Assembly (NCBI GenBank): GCA_029267445.1
Contig: JAJUIU010000006.1
Span: 1-64,000, forward strand
Direction of reading: 5' to 3'
Length of the DNA stretch: 64,000 bases
Source of the DNA: Rhodospirillaceae bacterium
GTDB taxonomy: Bacteria > Pseudomonadota > Alphaproteobacteria > Azospirillales > Azospirillaceae
Below, one piece after another: positions 22,706-54,522 of the stretch; position 1 is the stretch's first letter; each line of letters begins with the position of its first letter. Both the position numbers and the translations under genes were made by a program. The notes beneath the pieces were generated by a model. That model ran no database searches. It was not told the origin of the DNA and saw only the letters and a program-made list of their open reading frames with translations.

Positions 22706-23098
22706 CTAGGGTCGGACCTGCTCCGGCAGATCCCAAAGGAATTCCGGTGCGTCGTCTTCCTGCATTCCATCCGGAACCTGCCGGCGAAGCGCATTTTCCA
22801 GCGGGTCGAGATGCAGGGTGATGATGTCCCAGATCGTCTCGAGAGCGACCTTGTCGTACTCGTGAACAATGTGGTTCCGAAGGGCGATGATGGCCGGCCA
22901 GGGAATGTCCGGCAGCTGGTCCTTGAACGCGGGGCTGAGTGCCCTGGCGGCCTCTCCGATAACGATGAAACTGTAAAGGATGGCCTTCACCCGCACGTCT
23001 CGGATGGACAGGTTGGCCCGCGACAGGCCTTGGACGGTGTCCCGGATATCCTCGATCGCGTTCAGGATGTCGCGCGCCCGCGCCGCGTCCCGTGTCAC
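22706..23098 (-). CDS. HepT-like HEPN ribonuclease toxin
   Basis: A 130-residue DUF86/HEPN protein with the active-site motif RNHIVHEY (R-x4-H-x-Y, about residues 83-90). HepT toxins cleave RNA with this R/H pair and are silenced by AMP addition to the Tyr by the partner nucleotidyltransferase. It starts 2 bp after the MNT gene. The C-terminal ~20 residues (GMQEDDAPEFLWDLPEQ) extend beyond the usual domain. Confidence 0.88.
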   Translation of the reverse strand: MTRDAARARDILNAIEDIRDTVQGLSRANLSIRDVRVKAILYSFIVIGEAARALSPAFKDQLPDIPWPAIIALRNHIVHEYDKVALETIWDIITLHLDPLENALRRQVPDGMQEDDAPEFLWDLPEQVRP

Positions 23099-23100
23099 GG

Positions 23101-23400
23101 CTAGAACACCTTCACCCCATCCTGGGCGAAGGCGCGGCGCAGCGCCGGCTTGAGGCCGCGATAGTCGCAGAGGTCGACCTTGCGGCCCAGCAGGCGCTCG
23201 GCCCGCTGCTCCATCTGGATCAGTTCGATCAGCGAAACAGGGCGGGTTTCATCGACCTTGACGACCAGATCGACATCGCTGTCGGCGCCCGCCTCTCCCC
23301 GCGCCACCGAGCCGAACACGGCCATATGCTCCGCCCCCAGCCGGCGGAAGTCCTCGGCATGATCCCTCAGCACCCGTGTCACATGATCGAGCGTGGTCAT
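23101..23400 (-). CDS. MntA-like nucleotidyltransferase antitoxin
   Basis: A 99-residue minimal nucleotidyltransferase: MAVFGSVARGEAGADSDVDL (about residues 26-45) is the GS-x10-DxD active site. It is the antitoxin of type VII HEPN/MNT pairs and inactivates HepT by adding AMP. It is the first gene of the leftward pair and is followed 2 bp later by hepT. Confidence 0.9.
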   Translation of the reverse strand: MTTLDHVTRVLRDHAEDFRRLGAEHMAVFGSVARGEAGADSDVDLVVKVDETRPVSLIELIQMEQRAERLLGRKVDLCDYRGLKPALRRAFAQDGVKVF

Positions 23401-25176: not shown

Positions 25177-26247
25177 CTACTCCGCCGCCTCCAGCGCGGC
25201 GGGATGCACGCGGGACTCTTCCGCCCACATGCTCATGATCTCAGTGGGGCCGGCCAGCCCAAGCGCGTCCAGCAACCGGAGTTCGCCCATGATTGCATCC
25301 TGTTGACGCTCCAGCGCCGCCGGGATCAGCGCCCTGATCTCGGGGGTATGGAACAGGATGTGGCAGGCCTCGCAGTTGCCGCCAACATCTTCGCGGGCGG
25401 GGACCGCCGCACCAAACTCCGTGCCGATGTACGCCAGCACGGCGTAAGGACCGCGCAGATAAATCCAGTTCAGCAGAGGGTCGTCCATGCCGCGCTGGAT
25501 CGCTTCTTCCAGGTTGGCGGGATGGAAATCAGGATCGAGCACAAGCTCTGGCGTCTCCTGGATGACGCCGCAGCAGGCAAGCAGCTTGTTCCGCGCGCTC
25601 AGGGTTGGGCCGGTGAGCACATAGGGGCATGGCCCGACCGTGCGTTCCGGCCGCAGCTGCGCGTCCTCGAGCTCGGTCCTCGCGCGCCCGGTCTTGTTCA
25701 GCGGGGATTCGGAAAGGATCGCGTCGCTGTCCTCCGGCTCGCCGAGCTCGTCAAGAAGCCGGGCGCGCGACCATTTGCTGTCGGCCGCCTGCACGGTGTT
25801 GATCGCTACCGTCATGCCAGCGGCCCGGGCCGCCTTGAACGTGTTGATGACGGCGTCGAACGGGACGAATTCCTCATGGAAGTCGTCCCAGCTGATCGAA
25901 AGCTCGTCCAACCCCGCCGCTGTCAACTGGTCGACGATCCGCGCCGCATGCTTCGGCTGGCGTCCGAAATATGCGCTGGTCACGACCCGCGTCGTGAGGC
26001 CCCGGTCCTTTGCGCGACGGATCGCCCGCATCAACTGGTCGCCCAGCAACAGCGGTTCGCCGCCGGTGAAGGCGACCATCTTGATCGTTTCGGCGTCCAG
26101 GGCGTCCAGCGTGGACAGGATGTGTTCGATGTCCAGTCGGTCCTTGTTGGCCGGGCTGGAGGAGAAGCAGCAGTGCGCACACGCCAGGGGGCATGTATAG
26201 GTCACGTGGATGGCGAAGCTGCGCGGAAAGATCATCGCGTCCTCCAC
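25177..26247 (-). CDS. Radical SAM enzyme, likely peptide maturase
   Basis: A 356-residue radical SAM protein. The [4Fe-4S] motif is CPLACAHC (C19, C23, C26), followed by FTGGEPLL (60-67). Additional cysteines C207, C225/C226 and C292/C295 (GGNCEACH) in the C-terminal half suggest an auxiliary cluster of the kind found in peptide-modifying radical SAM enzymes, although a full SPASM pattern is not evident. It lies 51 bp behind a small Cys-free gene that looks like a leader-plus-core precursor. Modification type (epimerisation, C-C or other crosslink) cannot be deduced. The annotation as radical SAM is firm; the peptide role is inferred. Confidence 0.8.
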   Translation of the reverse strand: MEDAMIFPRSFAIHVTYTCPLACAHCCFSSSPANKDRLDIEHILSTLDALDAETIKMVAFTGGEPLLLGDQLMRAIRRAKDRGLTTRVVTSAYFGRQPKHAARIVDQLTAAGLDELSISWDDFHEEFVPFDAVINTFKAARAAGMTVAINTVQAADSKWSRARLLDELGEPEDSDAILSESPLNKTGRARTELEDAQLRPERTVGPCPYVLTGPTLSARNKLLACCGVIQETPELVLDPDFHPANLEEAIQRGMDDPLLNWIYLRGPYAVLAYIGTEFGAAVPAREDVGGNCEACHILFHTPEIRALIPAALERQQDAIMGELRLLDALGLAGPTEIMSMWAEESRVHPAALEAAE

Positions 26248-26298
26248 TTCTGGCGGGATGGAGGCCGGCCGGGCTCCCGGCCGGCCCGTTACTGAAGT

Positions 26299-26649
26299 TC
26301 AGAAAGCGACGGCGATCTTGCTGGAGGCCATCGAATAGGAACCGGCCGCGACCGCCCAGACAGTCGCGCCGACGATGCTGGGGTCTCTCGTGCCGACCAA
26401 GCCCCGCAGCTGTTCAAGGCTGTCGACCCCCTTCAGCGCATCCTTCAACTTGGCCGAAATGTCCGCATCGACCTTGAAGCCGTACTTTCCGGTAAAGGCC
26501 TGGGGATCGTTGGCGAAATCCTTGAAGTTCTTCGGGTCCAACAGCGCCTTGTTCAGATCCCATCCTCCCCTCTTCGGATTCTTGATGTCGATGATTTTGC
26601 CGTCGACATTGATGGAGATAGTGTTTCCCTTGATCCTCGAGATAGGCAT
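26299..26649 (-). CDS. Putative RiPP-like precursor or substrate of the radical SAM enzyme
   Basis: A 116-residue protein of no recognised family. Residues 1-85 are mixed charged, with helix-forming stretches (DISAKLKDALKGVDSLEQLRG split by turns), resembling a long leader. The last ~25 residues (IVGATVWAVAAGSYSMASSK then IAVAF) are small, hydrophobic and Ser/Ala-rich, resembling a core. It has W30, W98 and Y105 but no cysteine. GGAGG lies 7 bases before the ATG. It is upstream of, and co-directional with, the radical SAM gene. No protease or exporter gene is adjacent, so a precursor role is inference. Confidence 0.6.
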   Translation of the reverse strand: MPISRIKGNTISINVDGKIIDIKNPKRGGWDLNKALLDPKNFKDFANDPQAFTGKYGFKVDADISAKLKDALKGVDSLEQLRGLVGTRDPSIVGATVWAVAAGSYSMASSKIAVAF

Positions 26650-47713: not shown

Positions 47714-49252
47714 ATGATCACGGGTGAGATCAAGCGTCAGATCGACGACATCTGGAACGACTTCTGGACCGGCGGGATGTCCAATCCCCTGGCCGTGATG
47801 GAGCAGATCACCGTCCTGCTGTTCATCCGCCGCCTGGACGAACTCCACACGCTGGAGGAGGCGCGGGCCGCCACCCTGAAGAAGCCGATGGCGCGCCGCG
47901 TCTTCCCCGAGGGGGCCGACCAGGACGGCGTGCCGTACGAGCGGATGCGCTGGTCCCGCTTCAGGTCGCTGGAACCCCGGGCGATGTTCGACCTCGTCGA
48001 CCGGCACGTCTTCCCCTTCCTGCGGACCCTGGGCGGCGCCGGGTCCAGCTTCGCCACGCACATGAAGGACGCCCGCCTGGGCATCCCCACGCCGGCCCTG
48101 CTGGCGAAGGTGGTGGAGAAGCTGGACCGCGTGCCCATGGAGGAGCGGGACACCAAGGGCGACGTCTACGAGTACATGCTGGGCAAGATCGCCAGCGCCG
48201 GCCACAACGGGCAGTTCCGCACGCCCCGGCACATCATCGCGGCGATGGTGGAACTGATGGCGCCCACGCCGGACGACGTGATCTGCGACCCGGCGGCGGG
48301 CACCGCCGGCTTCCTGGTGGCGGCGGGGGAGTATCTGCGGCGGGAGCACAAGGCCCTGTTCCATGACCCGGCGAAGCTGCGCCACTTCCACACCCGCGCC
48401 TTCAACGGATTCGACTTCGATCCCACCATGCTGCGCATCGGGGCCATGAACATGGTCCTGCACGGGGTGGAGGGGGCGAACATCGCCTACCGCGACAGCC
48501 TGGCGGAGGAGCATGGGGAGGATGCGGGCGCCTATTCCCTGATCCTGGCCAACCCGCCCTTCGCCGGCTCGCTGGATTACGAGGCCTGCGCCAAGGACCT
48601 GCAGCGCGTCGTCAAGACGAAGAAGACGGAGCTGCTGTTCATCGCCCTGTTCCTGCGGCTGCTGCGCGTCGGTGGCCGGGCGGCGGTGATCGTGCCGGAC
48701 GGCGTGCTGTTCGGCTCCTCCAAGGCGCACAGGGACATCCGCCGCATCCTGGTGGAGGACCACAGGCTGGACGCGGTGATCAAGCTGCCGTCGGGCGTGT
48801 TCCGCCCCTATGCCGGGGTGTCCACCGCCATCCTCTGCTTCACCCGCACGGACAGCGGCGGCACCGACCATGTCTGGTTCTACGACGTGCAGGCCGACGG
48901 CTTCTCCCTGGACGACAAGCGCACGCCCCTCGTGGGGGAGGATAAGCTGGGCCCCGTGCCCGGCCGCACCCTGACGGCCGAGGAGTTCCAGCGGAACAAC
49001 CTGCCCGACCTGGTGACCCGCTGGCAGGACCGCGCCGGCGACGAACGCAAGCGCCCCCGCACGGCCCAGAGCTTCTGCGTGCCCAAGGTGGAAATCGCTG
49101 CGGCCGGCTACGACCTGTCCCTCAACCGCTACAAGGAAGTGGCGCACGCGACGGCGGACCATGCCAGCCCGGCGGAGATCCTGGCCGAGCTGAAACGCAT
49201 CGAGGCGGAGATCGCCGACGGCACCCGGCGGCTGGAGGAGATGCTGGGATGA
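47714..49252 (+). CDS. hsdM: Type I restriction methyltransferase HsdM (second system)
   Basis: A 512-residue type I M subunit distinct from the one at 34484. The AdoMet motif is VICDPAAGTAGFL (about 190-202) and the catalytic motif is intact (LANPPFAGS, about 278-286). The N-terminal helical domain has IDDIWNDFWTGGMSNPLAVMEQ. It overlaps its hsdS by 4 bp. Its cognate hsdR is 5.4 kb downstream, beyond several inserted genes. Confidence 0.92.
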   Translation: MITGEIKRQIDDIWNDFWTGGMSNPLAVMEQITVLLFIRRLDELHTLEEARAATLKKPMARRVFPEGADQDGVPYERMRWSRFRSLEPRAMFDLVDRHVFPFLRTLGGAGSSFATHMKDARLGIPTPALLAKVVEKLDRVPMEERDTKGDVYEYMLGKIASAGHNGQFRTPRHIIAAMVELMAPTPDDVICDPAAGTAGFLVAAGEYLRREHKALFHDPAKLRHFHTRAFNGFDFDPTMLRIGAMNMVLHGVEGANIAYRDSLAEEHGEDAGAYSLILANPPFAGSLDYEACAKDLQRVVKTKKTELLFIALFLRLLRVGGRAAVIVPDGVLFGSSKAHRDIRRILVEDHRLDAVIKLPSGVFRPYAGVSTAILCFTRTDSGGTDHVWFYDVQADGFSLDDKRTPLVGEDKLGPVPGRTLTAEEFQRNNLPDLVTRWQDRAGDERKRPRTAQSFCVPKVEIAAAGYDLSLNRYKEVAHATADHASPAEILAELKRIEAEIADGTRRLEEMLG

Positions 49253-50415
49253 AGGGGGTGCGGAGGGTAAAGCTAGGAGAGGTCGCGGAGCTGGTCCGGC
49301 AGGTCATGTCGCCGGGCGACATGCCACAAGGAACCCGGTATGTCGGCCTTGAACACATCCTGTCCACAGGCGAAATCCAAGCGAACGGTCCGGTTGAACC
49401 CGGGGAAATAGCAAGCAACAAGTTCGAATTCCATCCAGGGCAGATCCTGTTCGGCAAGTTACGCCCTTACCTGCGCAAGGTAGCGCGGCCCGATTTTCGG
49501 GGCGTATGCAGCACAGACATCATACCTATCCAGCCTAGCCGACAAGTCGATGCAGGCTTTCTGTTTCACATGCTGAGGACAGACGAGTTCATTGACCGCG
49601 CTACGGCCCTGGCGACGGGAGCGAATCTGCCCCGCATAAGCCCAAAGCTGCTTGTTGAGTTCGAGTTCCCCCTTCCAACACTCGAGGAGCAGCGGCGGAT
49701 TGCTGCCATCCTCGACCAGGCCGATACGCTCCGCCGCCACCGCCGCGCTGCGCTGGAGCGGTTGACTAATCTCATTGAAGCGACGCTTACAGACTTCCTC
49801 GCGTCCGATATCAGCTATAAATGGCCTCTCGTCTCTTTAGGGAACTGTGGAGATGTCCAAGGTGGCCTCCAGGTCTCGGCGAAACGAAAGGGAGACGGTC
49901 CACCAGTTCCTTATCTTCGCGTCGCGAACGTCTATCGGAATCGTCTTGACCTGGGTGAAATCAAGGTAATGCCAGCCACATTAGCGGAAGTTGCCCGTCT
50001 TCGGCTCGAGGCGGGCGACATCCTTATCGTCGAAGGTCACGGAAATGCGGCCGAGATCGGTAGAACTGCTCTCTGGGATGGTTCTATTCCCGACTGTATT
50101 CACCAGAACCATTTGATCCGGGTTCGGCCCAACCGCCAGAAGCTCGAACCGACCTTTGCATCGCTTTACCTAAACTCCAGTGCGGGGAGACTCCATTTGG
50201 TGGGCCGAGGAAGAACGACGTCGGGACTGAACACAATCAGTGTGCGCGATGTTCGGGAAACGCCAATCCCGCTCCCCCCCCTTTCCCTCCAACGCGCCTT
50301 CGCCGACCGCGTGCGCGCCATCGAGGTCCTGAAGGCCAGGCACCGCGCCCACCTGTCCCACCTCGACGCCCTCTTCGCGTCGTTGCAACATCGAGCCATC
50401 AATGGGGGTTTTTGA
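49249..50415 (+). CDS. hsdS: Type I specificity subunit HsdS (second system)
   Basis: A 388-residue S subunit with two recognition domains (about 1-140 and 190-335) and conserved helices EFPLPTLEEQRRIAAILDQADTLRRHRR and LPPLSLQRAFADRVRAIEVL. The recognition domains are less GC-rich than the helices. The last 117 bp of shared helix are repeated at 51598-51714 at the end of an hsdS fragment, showing recombination at this gene. Confidence 0.9.
   Translation: MKGVRRVKLGEVAELVRQVMSPGDMPQGTRYVGLEHILSTGEIQANGPVEPGEIASNKFEFHPGQILFGKLRPYLRKVARPDFRGVCSTDIIPIQPSRQVDAGFLFHMLRTDEFIDRATALATGANLPRISPKLLVEFEFPLPTLEEQRRIAAILDQADTLRRHRRAALERLTNLIEATLTDFLASDISYKWPLVSLGNCGDVQGGLQVSAKRKGDGPPVPYLRVANVYRNRLDLGEIKVMPATLAEVARLRLEAGDILIVEGHGNAAEIGRTALWDGSIPDCIHQNHLIRVRPNRQKLEPTFASLYLNSSAGRLHLVGRGRTTSGLNTISVRDVRETPIPLPPLSLQRAFADRVRAIEVLKARHRAHLSHLDALFASLQHRAINGGF
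50281..50397. repeat. hsdS tail repeat, copy 1
   Basis: CTTTCCCTCCAACGCGCCTT through ...CATCGAGCC is nearly the same as 51598-51714, same orientation. It encodes the terminal coiled-coil helix of HsdS. Recombination between the copies would delete the Abi-like gene between them. Confidence 0.85.
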
Positions 50416-50418
50416 CCG

Positions 50419-51348
50419 ATGCGCGGTGATCTCCTGCGGGTATGGCCCGAAACCTGGACTGAGATCTGGTATCCAGTGCTCAGGCATGAGGATGCGCCAG
50501 AAGATATAGCGGTCGAGCTTTTCGACACTCTTGTACCGCAACCTGTTGCCCCGAAAGAGCCCAGCCGGCCAGAGGACTTCACAGAGGCCGGTGACTTCGC
50601 CGATCCCGCTGATCGGGATGCGTTTGCGGCATATGATGCCGCATTCAAGGCCTACGAGGTCGCCCTCGGTGAATACCAGGAAGCTGCCAACGACCCCGGC
50701 CTCGCCGAGATAGCGCTGAAAGAGTTTTTGACCCAACCAGTTCTTTCCGAGTTACATGCAGTAAAAAAGATTGAGGAGGGCAATAGCACAATTGCTGCAT
50801 TCGAATTAGAATCACTAAATGCATACTATTTTGAGAGAACAAAGAAGTTTCTCGAAAAATACAATTTACGATACACGGTTCGTCAACCATTTAGTTTACA
50901 TGTAACGCCGAGCGGCGTCCTTGTAAACATCATTCAAGAAATCGAGAAAATAAGTCAGGGGGACGAGGGGCTCCAAGGGCTGGTTCGCGACTACAACGAG
51001 GCTTTCGAAGACCTAAAGCTTGGACATACCCCAGGGAGAATACGGACCTGTATACAGAAGCAGGTCAACCTCCTTGAGGGCATCGGAACACTCAACCGTG
51101 AAATCAACGGAGGCCTCGGAGAAATATGCACGAAAATAGAAAATTGGCCACACCCGACAATTCCCAAAGCTATAATCGCCCTATATGGCCTAGCCTCTGA
51201 TGTGCAGGGCATTAGACATGGCGTACGGAACAAGAAAAAGCTTCCCGAAACAAATCTGCGTGACTTGGTTGCGCTGTCAGCAATGTTCTGCGGTGCCGCT
51301 GTATATCTGGACGACGACCTAGACCCTGCGCGGATATATTTTGGCTAA
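50419..51348 (+). CDS. Abi-like protein inserted in the type I locus
   Basis: A 309-residue protein with no secure family. The first ~100 residues are acidic and charged, with two amphipathic stretches; the DNA for residues 110-305 is clearly AT-richer than the surroundings. The C-terminal segment GIRHGVRNKKKLPETNLRDLVALSAMF (split here) resembles the RNK/HG-type end of abortive-infection HEPN-like domains, followed by a hydrophobic helix. It is framed by the 117-bp hsdS tail repeats. A toxin-like guard linked to the restriction system is plausible, but low confidence for function. Confidence 0.5.
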   Translation: MRGDLLRVWPETWTEIWYPVLRHEDAPEDIAVELFDTLVPQPVAPKEPSRPEDFTEAGDFADPADRDAFAAYDAAFKAYEVALGEYQEAANDPGLAEIALKEFLTQPVLSELHAVKKIEEGNSTIAAFELESLNAYYFERTKKFLEKYNLRYTVRQPFSLHVTPSGVLVNIIQEIEKISQGDEGLQGLVRDYNEAFEDLKLGHTPGRIRTCIQKQVNLLEGIGTLNREINGGLGEICTKIENWPHPTIPKAIIALYGLASDVQGIRHGVRNKKKLPETNLRDLVALSAMFCGAAVYLDDDLDPARIYFG

Positions 51349-51377
51349 TAAGGAAGTGTACATGTGTTCTTGATGCC

Positions 51378-51731
51378 ATGTGCAGGACCACAATACCGCA
51401 GGGCGACGAGCCCTACGCCTTCGCCGGCTATCTCGTGCGACTGCACACCAACGGGAGGGCCGATCCCGAACGCATTTCGGCGTTCCTCAACAGCCGCTAC
51501 GGCAAAGCGGTGCTGCGGGGAATGTGCAAGAGCATCATCGGCATGGCCAACATCAACGCGAAGGAACTGCTGGGCATCCGCATTCCCCTGGCGCCCCTTT
51601 CCCTCCAACGCGCCTTCGCCGAGCGCGTGCGCGCCATCGAGGCCCTGAAGGCCCAGCACCGCGCCCACCTGTCCCACCTCGACGCCTTGTTCGCGTCGCT
51701 GCAGCACCGGGCGTTCCGGGGGGAGTTGTGA
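51378..51731 (+). pseudogene. Truncated hsdS, C-terminal part
   Basis: 117 codons equal to the second half of a recognition domain and the terminal helix of an S subunit: TIPQGDEPYAFAGYLVRLH, SIIGMANINAKELLGIRIP and LQRAFAERVRAIEALKAQHR. Upstream the homology fades about 5 codons before the ATG (VLDAMC...). The other recognition domain is absent. It is a left-over of an hsdS that exchanged domains, or a donor cassette for new specificity. Confidence 0.8.
51598..51714. repeat. hsdS tail repeat, copy 2
   Basis: Second copy of the HsdS terminal-helix sequence (see 50281-50397), with scattered substitutions. Confidence 0.85.
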
Positions 51732-51818
51732 GGTTCCCCGCAGTGGCGCCCCCTTGTCACGGCGCTCCACCTTTAGGATAGTCGGTGCGGGCATATCGCC
51801 GTTTCGGGGGAGGCGATC

Positions 51819-52310
51819 GTGGGCAAACTCGGCGAACTTGCGCTCAAGCTGCTATGGCCGATCCTGCAGCAAGTCGTGCTGAAGCTGCTCGGCGTGCTGG
51901 TCGACTTCCTCATCGCCAAATGCAAAGCCTTCCTGAAGACGTACGGCGAGCGCAAGCGGCAGGAAGCTCAAGCGAAGAAGGCGGCGGCCGAGCGCGCCGC
52001 CGCCGAAGCCCAGGCGGGCACGGCGCCGATGGACGCGGCGGCCATCGAATCGCTCCGTCGAGCGGCGGACGAGGAGGTCGAGGCCGCCGAGACCTTGGCG
52101 AAGGCCATGGATGGCCTCGCCAGCGGCCTCGAGGCCGCCGTGCGCGATGCCGGCGAGGAGTACAAGCGGGAAATCCGGATCAATCCGCTGGGGAAGGGCT
52201 TGGAACTGAAGATCGGCGAGGAGCGCCACCTTCTCGGGCCGGAGGAGCCGAAGGCGCTGCCCCCGCCCCAGCCGCCGCTCGATGGGGGTGGTGCGAAGGC
52301 TCCGGCCTGA
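51819..52310 (+). CDS. Membrane-anchored coiled-coil protein, unknown
   Basis: A 163-residue protein of no recognised family. The N-terminal ~40 residues are a hydrophobic/amphipathic helix (LALKLLWPILQQVVLKLLGV then LVDFLIAKC), followed by an Ala/Glu/Lys/Arg-rich coiled coil (about 42-110) and a Pro-rich tail. The start is GTG at 51819 behind GGGGAGG. It is the first of three non-restriction genes between hsdS and hsdR of the second type I system. Confidence 0.65.
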   Translation: MGKLGELALKLLWPILQQVVLKLLGVLVDFLIAKCKAFLKTYGERKRQEAQAKKAAAERAAAEAQAGTAPMDAAAIESLRRAADEEVEAAETLAKAMDGLASGLEAAVRDAGEEYKREIRINPLGKGLELKIGEERHLLGPEEPKALPPPQPPLDGGGAKAPA

Positions 52311-52693
52311 TCGATTCCAGCCTCTCGGCGGAGCGGGTGTCGCGACCTGACGCCGACGGAGCAGATTGACCGGGGTCTCCAGCCGGCGGAGACCATCTTC
52401 CCCGCCCGTCCGCAACGGCAACGCACCATGCGACCGGCGGCCCTGCGGCTGCATCGCATGTCCCGATTGCACCGCGCCTGACCCGGATCACCCAAGGCTA
52501 GGGCTCTCCGGTCGGCATGGGAATGTTCACCGCTCCTCTCCGTCCCGTACCCAGCTCAGTATGCCGCTTCCGCATGCGTTGAACACTTCGCCATCTCTTA
52601 TAATGGCTTGATACATCCATTCGTCATATGCCACGCTCCACGATGTCGTCACGTGTGGACTTTTTCTCGGCAACCTTGGCGAAGGGGGGCGTA
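52311..52693. other. Intergenic stretch without recognised genes
   Basis: About 380 bp of non-coding sequence between two unknown genes. AT content rises after 52590, which may hold the promoter for the next pair. No repeat or hairpin stands out. Confidence 0.5.
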
Positions 52694-53113
52694 ATGTTGC
52701 TCTGGGCGGGTGCCGCTCCGGTGGCCACAGAAATCTATGCGTACATTGGCGACAGGGGGGTCGGCCTTTTTTCGCTGCACCGTCTGATACCCACAAACGG
52801 CAGTTGGGTAACGGAAGGCATGCGCATGGACGACTCCAACAAGCGTGATGGAGATGCTGTCTTCGGCTTCACAGGAAACCAAATTCAGTCTTGGGACGTA
52901 AATCCGATTTCCCTACGTATTTCAGTATTTAGCTTTGCTAAAGACAAAACAAAACTTCCCCTTTATATTTCGGTCAGACAAAACAACAGAGTTTTGAAGC
53001 CGATCGATATGATGGGAGATCCCGTCACGATGACAAAGGGCTTCGTTCTGGCCGAAAACGAGTTGGTTGTTGGACAAGGGGTCGCGAACGATTTCAATAT
53101 CTTGCTGCGCTAG
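52694..53113 (+). CDS. Small protein of unknown function
   Basis: A protein of 139 residues (from the ATG at 52694, which has AAGGGGGG at good spacing; an in-frame ATG at 52628 would add 22 residues). It has no recognised family. The sequence is rich in beta-strand-forming stretches (EIYAYIGDRGVGLFSLHRL, PISLRISVFSFAKDK, LPLYISVRQNN) and ends VANDFNILLR, resembling a compact beta protein. There is no clear signal peptide. It ends 8 bp before the outer-membrane protein gene and likely forms an operon with it. Confidence 0.6.
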   Translation: MLLWAGAAPVATEIYAYIGDRGVGLFSLHRLIPTNGSWVTEGMRMDDSNKRDGDAVFGFTGNQIQSWDVNPISLRISVFSFAKDKTKLPLYISVRQNNRVLKPIDMMGDPVTMTKGFVLAENELVVGQGVANDFNILLR

Positions 53114-53121
53114 GTCCATCC

Positions 53122-54522
53122 ATGACAAACACAAGATTGCTTTGGGTTCTGGCGGTCAGCCTTTCGACGTTTTCCGCCACAGCGCAGGAAGCGCCCCAGA
53201 AAAGCGCCAACGTCGTTCTCTTGGACAAGCAGGCTGCGGAGAAGGGTGTCTTCGCCTTCGATTATGGAGTTCCGTCATCGCCCGCGTTGAGGCTTCTCGA
53301 TCAGGCGGCTGACAAGGTGCAGGCGGCAACCAACCTGAAGCCCTTCATCCTCAGCCTGCCGACGGTCCTGACCGGAAGCGAGGATGGACAGAGCGTCGCC
53401 TTGGACATCGCGCCGGCGTGGGTGCTGCAAGGTCCCTTGGAGAGAAGCTACACGCGGTATCTTGAAGAGGGGCGACTGTACCGGATTCTCCAGCGAACCC
53501 ACGTGAACACCGCCGTCTATGAAGGGGTTGCCTCCGACGATGCCAGCAAGGCCAAACGCTCGCGACTGGCCCTTGGTTTCAGTACATCGCTGCTCGATAC
53601 CAGCGACGTTCTCGTCGCCCCGGACGCGCTCAGTGGAACCCAGTCCGCGTGGGAGCACTGTCTGGATCTGAGGCAACCGGAATTGGATCGCGCCTGGGCG
53701 GCAGTGGGATTCCCCATCAACATGGCGCGGGCGCAGTTGGACAAAAGACGGGCTGAACTGATAGAAGAGAAAATTAGCTATCGGGAAGATCTTGCCAAGC
53801 TTGGCCCGGACGGAAATCCAGACGTCATCGCCTATATCAACAGCAAAATTGAGAAAATTGATCAAGAACTCAAGTTGCTCGCAGAGGAACAGAAAAAAGA
53901 TGAGTCCGCAGCGAACGAAGTTCTGAAAAACTCAACATCGGCTCTTGGCGCGAAGGTTCTGTCGGAATGCACCGCCCGCGCCAACAGGGCCGCACGCTAC
54001 GGGGCGAGCTTCGAGGTGGGTGCCGGGGCGATCTGGCACGGAACGCCGGGCAGGGTGCGAGGTTTCGGCGACCCCGGGGGGGCCATTTGGGCGTCGTACC
54101 GGCTGCCGCTTGACGTTTTGTTTGATCAGACAGGCGATTCTCCGCTCCGTTACTGGGTGGTCGGGGCGTCTGGCCGCGTCGCCTTTGGTGAGTTCGTCAA
54201 GACTGGGAATAAGGTCACACCGGAAACGCGTGCAGATACCTGGGACGTTTGGGCCGGCGTTGAACGGCTCACCGCGAGCAACCGCCTTGCCCTCCAAACG
54301 GGGTACCAGTCCCGTGATTCCGAAGGCGGTGTGCCTGATTTCGACAGGGAACGCTGGCGTTATCTGGCAAGTTATTCCCAAGTCATCAGCAAAAATTCGG
54401 GGATTTGGGTCAAGTTGGCTTATGGTTATGTTGACCAGAAGGGTGATGATGACCGCAGTTTGCTGATCTCGTTGAGCTTCGCGCCACCTGATCCAGCCGA
54501 CCTGTTCGGCTTGGCGGATTAG
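53122..54522 (+). CDS. Predicted outer-membrane beta-barrel protein
   Basis: A 466-residue exported protein: signal peptide MTNTRLLWVLAVSLSTFSAT (cleavage after ATAQ), a globular N-terminal part, a coiled-coil stretch (about 205-275, KRRAELIEEKISYREDLAKL...KIDQELKLLAEEQKKD), then alternating barrel-like strands (ASFEVGAGAIWHG, LRYWVVGASGRVAFG, RLALQTGYQSRDS, GIWVKLAYGYVDQKG, SLLISLSF). No family is recognised. An outer-membrane protein inside a restriction operon is unusual; see findings. Confidence 0.6.
   Translation: MTNTRLLWVLAVSLSTFSATAQEAPQKSANVVLLDKQAAEKGVFAFDYGVPSSPALRLLDQAADKVQAATNLKPFILSLPTVLTGSEDGQSVALDIAPAWVLQGPLERSYTRYLEEGRLYRILQRTHVNTAVYEGVASDDASKAKRSRLALGFSTSLLDTSDVLVAPDALSGTQSAWEHCLDLRQPELDRAWAAVGFPINMARAQLDKRRAELIEEKISYREDLAKLGPDGNPDVIAYINSKIEKIDQELKLLAEEQKKDESAANEVLKNSTSALGAKVLSECTARANRAARYGASFEVGAGAIWHGTPGRVRGFGDPGGAIWASYRLPLDVLFDQTGDSPLRYWVVGASGRVAFGEFVKTGNKVTPETRADTWDVWAGVERLTASNRLALQTGYQSRDSEGGVPDFDRERWRYLASYSQVISKNSGIWVKLAYGYVDQKGDDDRSLLISLSFAPPDPADLFGLAD

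Follow-up and report, generated by a model that had tools for sequence, protein, structure and literature searches.

A two-gene cassette in a Rhodospirillaceae bacterium that probably encodes a ribosomal peptide and an EpeE-type radical SAM epimerase

Introduction

The D-residues that radical SAM epimerases introduce into ribosomal peptides are irreversible, and we know of few classes of substrate on which these enzymes act. The best match to the locus described here is the epipeptide system epeXEPAB, described from Firmicutes, in which the precursor EpeX (YydF) is accompanied by the epimerase EpeE (YydG), the peptidase EpeP and the transporter EpeAB. The substrate residues on which EpeE acts are Val36 and Ile44, and C223 of EpeE is the proposed H-atom donor (PMC8326336); in B. 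subtilis, a terminator lies between epeX and epeE (PMC12871923). Other systems that invite comparison are the proteusins, with PoyA-like NHLP leaders and PoyD-type epimerases, and the sactipeptides and ranthipeptides.

Here we analyzed a stretch of 64,000 nucleotides from a Rhodospirillaceae bacterium (contig JAJUIU010000006.1, positions 1 to 64,000; "the window"), in which a first-pass annotation had pointed to a small-protein gene next to a radical SAM gene. Judging from sequence comparisons, we consider it likely that the two genes form a horizontally acquired RiPP cassette whose EpeE-type enzyme would epimerize, at C-alpha, the hydrophobic C-terminal core of a 116-residue precursor.

Results

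The gene pair and the radical SAM enzyme. The peptide gene precedes the radical SAM gene on the minus strand, with a gap of about 60 bases between them. The peptide gene (26299..26649, stop included) is an open reading frame with a GGAGG ribosome site and encodes a precursor-like protein of 116 residues (orthologue at L015:5620-5955 in Photobacterium galatheae; BLASTP, E value = 2e-34); that it is Cys-free and contains W98 and Y105 agrees with the first-pass annotation. The same annotation had placed both reading frames correctly but had started the enzyme at a GTG at 26247 (25177-26247, 356 residues). The ATG at 26235 is the most likely start, because a GGAGG ribosome-binding site (26241..26245, minus strand) stands just before it and overlaps the GTG, and because the P. 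galatheae and Pseudobacteroides orthologues begin with MI there too. With this start, the gene (25177..26235, minus strand, stop included) encodes an EpeE/YydG-like radical SAM protein of 352 residues; enzyme residue numbers below follow the GTG-based numbering.

The enzyme matched PF04055 (E value = 1.9e-16), and among 18,950 NCBIfam models its best match was TIGR04078, the YydG family peptide epimerase (96.2 bits, E value = 2.4e-27), with the next model at 45 bits. The score is below the TIGR04078 equivalog cut-off of 300, which counts against the epimerase reading. The best relatives in the PDB were the EpeE/YydG structures 8ai1-8ai6 (single-sequence search, E value = 2e-16), and a seven-row profile including the window enzyme aligned with the EpeE structures over nearly the whole length (E value = 9e-76, a value strengthened by the row for the named YydG from Macrococcoides, L102). 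Sactisynthases and crosslinking radical SAM families were not among the best NCBIfam matches. By these comparisons, the nearest relatives of the window enzyme are the EpeE/YydG peptide epimerases and not sactisynthases or crosslinkers.

All catalytic cysteines of the named YydG were matched in the window enzyme by alignment. Comparison with this protein and with other relatives assigned the radical SAM cluster ligands to a CxxxCxxC motif (C19, C23, and C26; codons at 26170..26193, minus strand). The extra C-terminal cysteines remarked upon in the first-pass annotation proved to be C207, C225, C226, C292, and C295. The predicted auxiliary-cluster ligands C207 (25627..25629, minus strand) and C292 and C295 (25363..25374, minus strand) are invariant in 41 relatives, as is C225, likewise taken as a cysteine of the predicted auxiliary cluster; C226, which forms a pair with C225 (25570..25575, minus strand), is kept in 40 of the 41. 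C226 was equated with EpeE C223 by a profile alignment that took in 8ai1 and the C248A (= C223A) chains 8ai3-8ai5. In the latter chains Ala stands at position 248, or residue 223 once the tag is discounted, and the second cysteine of the pair thus corresponds to the proposed hydrogen donor. At the place aligned with EpeE D210, the residue mutated in 8ai6, the window enzyme has no Asp, and this also speaks against the epimerase reading.

The precursor-like protein. The first-pass annotation had allowed that the small protein might belong to a known structural family; it matched no known family among NCBIfam and the Pfam precursor families. The YydF/EpeX family was likewise not matched, and the Macrococcoides YydF is unlike the window precursor by eye. 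The protein consists of a leader-like part (residues 1-94; 26368..26649, minus strand), about 50% identical to the P. galatheae leader, and a putative core (residues 95-116, ATVWAVAAGSYSMASSKIAVAF; 26302..26367, minus strand), a hydrophobic, Ala/Val/Ser-rich C-terminal segment of about 22 residues. The alignment that the first-pass annotation had proposed as a check did reveal a conserved C-terminal motif, with 19 of these 22 residues identical in the P. galatheae orthologue; W98, Y105, and K111 are conserved between the two precursors. The leader carries a DPxxF...YG element, as do other precursors of the enzyme family, and gave a weak match to the NHLP-clan model NF038399 (NCBIfam, E value = 0.018, 15.1 bits versus a cut-off of 40).

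Some properties of the precursor weigh against epimerization of its core. The alternation of big and small residues expected of a D/L beta-helix was not significant in the core (shuffles, P values = 0.54 and 0.42), the A/V/N content of the core (11 of 24) is below that of most cores in the enzyme family, and a leader profile searched against three families of distant precursors gave nothing significant.

A second cassette in another class. A scan of genome contigs revealed two close enzymes, from Pseudobacteroides cellulosolvens (47% identity) and P. galatheae (45%). In a tree, these and the window enzyme grouped as a clade with full support, set apart from YydG by a long branch; the deeper placement of the clade is unsure because of the long branches. 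Immediately upstream of the P. galatheae enzyme gene lies a gene for a small protein, with order and orientation as in the window, and the two precursors are 55-57% identical. The core was better conserved than the leader, with 20 identical residues at 24 aligned positions compared with 44 of 88 (Fisher test, P value = 0.005), and the same codon was used at only 1 of the 20. Synonymous change between the two cores is saturated: base composition and codons are far apart while the protein sequence of the core has been held, and selection thus acts on the protein.

Judged by this intact copy in a distant genome, the pairing of precursor and enzyme is beyond chance. The suggestion in the first-pass annotation of a possible RiPP precursor/enzyme pair is thereby strengthened, both by the second copy in another class and by the conserved C-terminal motif. 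Its proposed check by co-occurrence succeeded in part: the pair is intact in P. galatheae, but the Pseudobacteroides enzyme, the closest by identity, adjoins an unrelated upstream ORF of 58-67 residues, and the clade of enzymes is thus not bound to a single precursor. This arrangement counts against the preferred reading, as does the number of intact cassettes known, which is only two. The 58-residue form of the Pseudobacteroides ORF (L014:5729-5905) has a strong ribosome site, is Tyr/Asn-rich, and contains Cys; it may be another substrate for this clade of enzymes. A literature search of incomplete coverage found no paper describing the precursor/enzyme pair.

An intergenic hairpin. Between the peptide stop and the enzyme start lies a hairpin with an 11-bp stem (26262..26287, minus strand), within a 66-nt region that folds at -32 kcal/mol (z = -2.3). 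P. galatheae has a 15-bp hairpin of other sequence at the same place (z = -4.05). By analogy with the epeX-epeE terminator, the hairpins would fit a design in which the precursor is made in excess.

Rarity and surroundings of the cassette. The peptide occurred convincingly in 1 of 82 genomes of the window's order; the other 81 held no convincing relative, with one marginal match (E value = 0.003). In the Photobacterium family it was present in 1 of 329 genomes and absent from the remaining 328. No further close enzyme orthologue was found in samples from the classes of the window (385 genomes), Photobacterium (360), and Pseudobacteroides (381). Plasmids, phages, and viral contigs, searched with the peptide or the enzyme, yielded no relative of the peptide and no phage or viral relative. 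The GC content of the peptide gene is 57%, versus 67% for the window (composition being judged within the window). Upstream stands a trx-LON-Trm112-DUF971 operon, which is conserved in relatives, and on the other side are two CoA-transferase subunit genes; the absence of an adjacent exporter or protease gene, noted in the first-pass annotation, was borne out. Two relatives have the same downstream CoA-transferase genes but other genes in the cassette slot, namely, VOC-like and MarC-like genes in one and a toxin-antitoxin-like pair plus a MarC-like gene in the other (ORFs named by eye). Because it is rare and GC-poor and its slot is filled by other genes in relatives, the cassette resembles an insertion, and it looks horizontally acquired.

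Elsewhere in the window, a HepT-like ribonuclease gene and a nucleotidyltransferase (MNT) gene form a likely toxin-antitoxin module (22706-23400), a Rep3-type replication initiator gene next to a DUF433/DUF5615 (PIN-like) pair looks like the remnant of a plasmid on the contig (29889-31298), and a GC-poor stretch holds the specificity gene of a type I restriction system along with four ORFs that have no Pfam match (49249-53865).

The wider family of EpeE-like enzymes. Enzymes about 25-33% identical to the window enzyme occur on plasmids and in genomes of many phyla. Their neighbors include proteins, roughly 115-370 residues long, in which one stretch is Ala/Val-rich or consists of Asn-Ala repeats, and some of these distant loci also have SdpI-family and methyltransferase genes nearby. 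An A/V/N-rich, core-like stretch was present in adjacent ORFs at 23 of 40 related enzyme loci, compared with 9 of 362 control ORFs, at a richness threshold that was chosen after seeing the data. Precursors at four loci (L004, L006, L017, and L022) gave weak NHLP-clan matches, all below the cut-off. Since the window leader has no significant alignment to the distant precursors, the family link rests on the enzyme.

Five loci (L004, L007, L009, L013, and L025) have precursor ORFs with Asn-Ala (NANANA) repeat cores beside the enzyme, often with a methyltransferase gene nearby; at L004, a DUF5969 domain (PF19394) follows the core. From their sequences, these proteins look like precursors of D/L-alternating peptides, and we found no paper on them. 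At two of the loci, SdpI-family (immunity-type) genes adjoin enzyme and precursor (L009:4597-4905 and L013:2859-3191), suggesting membrane-active products.

Discussion

The cassette shares with epeXEPAB the family to which the enzyme belongs by sequence, the full set of catalytic cysteines (the C222-C223 pair among them), and a Cys-free precursor that is encoded directly upstream, separated by a hairpin, and provided with a hydrophobic C-terminal core. We infer by analogy that it works like the epipeptide system. It is not, as that system is defined, a member of epeXEPAB: its precursor looks unrelated to YydF and has more than twice the length, it has no adjacent EpeP peptidase or EpeAB transporter (a point against the preferred reading), its enzyme reaches 96 of the 300 bits in the curated model and lacks D210, and it resides in Proteobacteria. 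With proteusins it has in common a long leader with a DPxxx..G element, a hydrophobic C-terminal core, and predicted epimerization with a Cys hydrogen donor. Its leader, in contrast, is marginally NHLP-like (15 bits, cut-off 40), no other tailoring genes accompany it, and its enzyme is nearest to EpeE, with YydG as the best family; it is probably not a proteusin as defined. Sactipeptide and ranthipeptide loci also pair an upstream peptide with a radical SAM enzyme bearing auxiliary-cluster cysteines. The window precursor, unlike theirs, has no Cys, so no thioether is possible; we rejected a sactipeptide reading, in line with the first-pass annotation.

Under the reading we prefer, the 116-residue protein would be a precursor with a leader of about 94 residues and a core of about 22. 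SAM would be cleaved at the C19/C23/C26 cluster, and the C-alpha hydrogen would be taken from chosen core residues, for which the conserved V100, I112, and V114 are natural candidates given that EpeE acts on Val and Ile. The radical would then be quenched from the other face by the C226 thiol, giving D-residues. The intergenic hairpin may keep the precursor in excess over the enzyme. Release and export of the mature D-peptide would fall to general functions of the host, and the peptide would have its effect on membranes.

Of the chemistries listed in the first-pass annotation, epimerization is favored because the best family is EpeE/YydG and the enzyme retains the Cys pair with the EpeE hydrogen donor; nothing was found in support of aromatic crosslinks at W98 and Y105. 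The same C-alpha radical could nonetheless lead to another product, either a C-C or C-O aromatic crosslink at these residues or a backbone change. Conservation of W98, Y105, and K111 in both precursors, substrate handling that must differ where D210 is not conserved, and the enzyme's score below the epimerase cut-off lend this some weight; the retained Cys pair that marks EpeE and the lack of crosslinking families among the best matches make it improbable in our judgment.

A slightly better case, still an unlikely one, can be made for in-place editing of the C-terminal tail of a folded cellular protein, the two genes being a protein-modification pair. The leader is long and well conserved, and neither intact cassette has an exporter or protease in its neighborhood. 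The core, however, is better conserved than the leader, and related enzymes mostly adjoin precursor-like proteins with hydrophobic cores, some of them beside SdpI-family genes. That the two genes are chance neighbors with no functional relation, as the different small ORF upstream of the close Pseudobacteroides enzyme might suggest, is very hard to reconcile with an order, orientation, short spacing, and intergenic hairpin common to two unrelated genomic contexts in different classes.

Epimerization of a RiPP core thus remains our preferred reading, and the product of the cassette is probably an unusual D-amino-acid peptide, of a previously unseen kind, in a bacterium outside those known to make such peptides. 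More tentatively, the cassette may be a founding member of a third class of radical SAM D-amino-acid peptides, distinct from both epipeptides and proteusins. It would then be a mobile, self-contained unit of two genes in Gram-negative bacteria, and the smallest form of a broad EpeE-like family. The other members of that family adjoin large precursors, whose Ala/Val or Asn-Ala cores could give rise to membrane peptides with alternating D- and L-residues. With two genes and a short conserved core, the cassette should be easy to express, and it would test EpeE-type chemistry beyond Firmicutes and without D210. Its relatives suggest that the pool of EpeE-like enzymes is larger, spread over many phyla and paired with core-bearing precursors.
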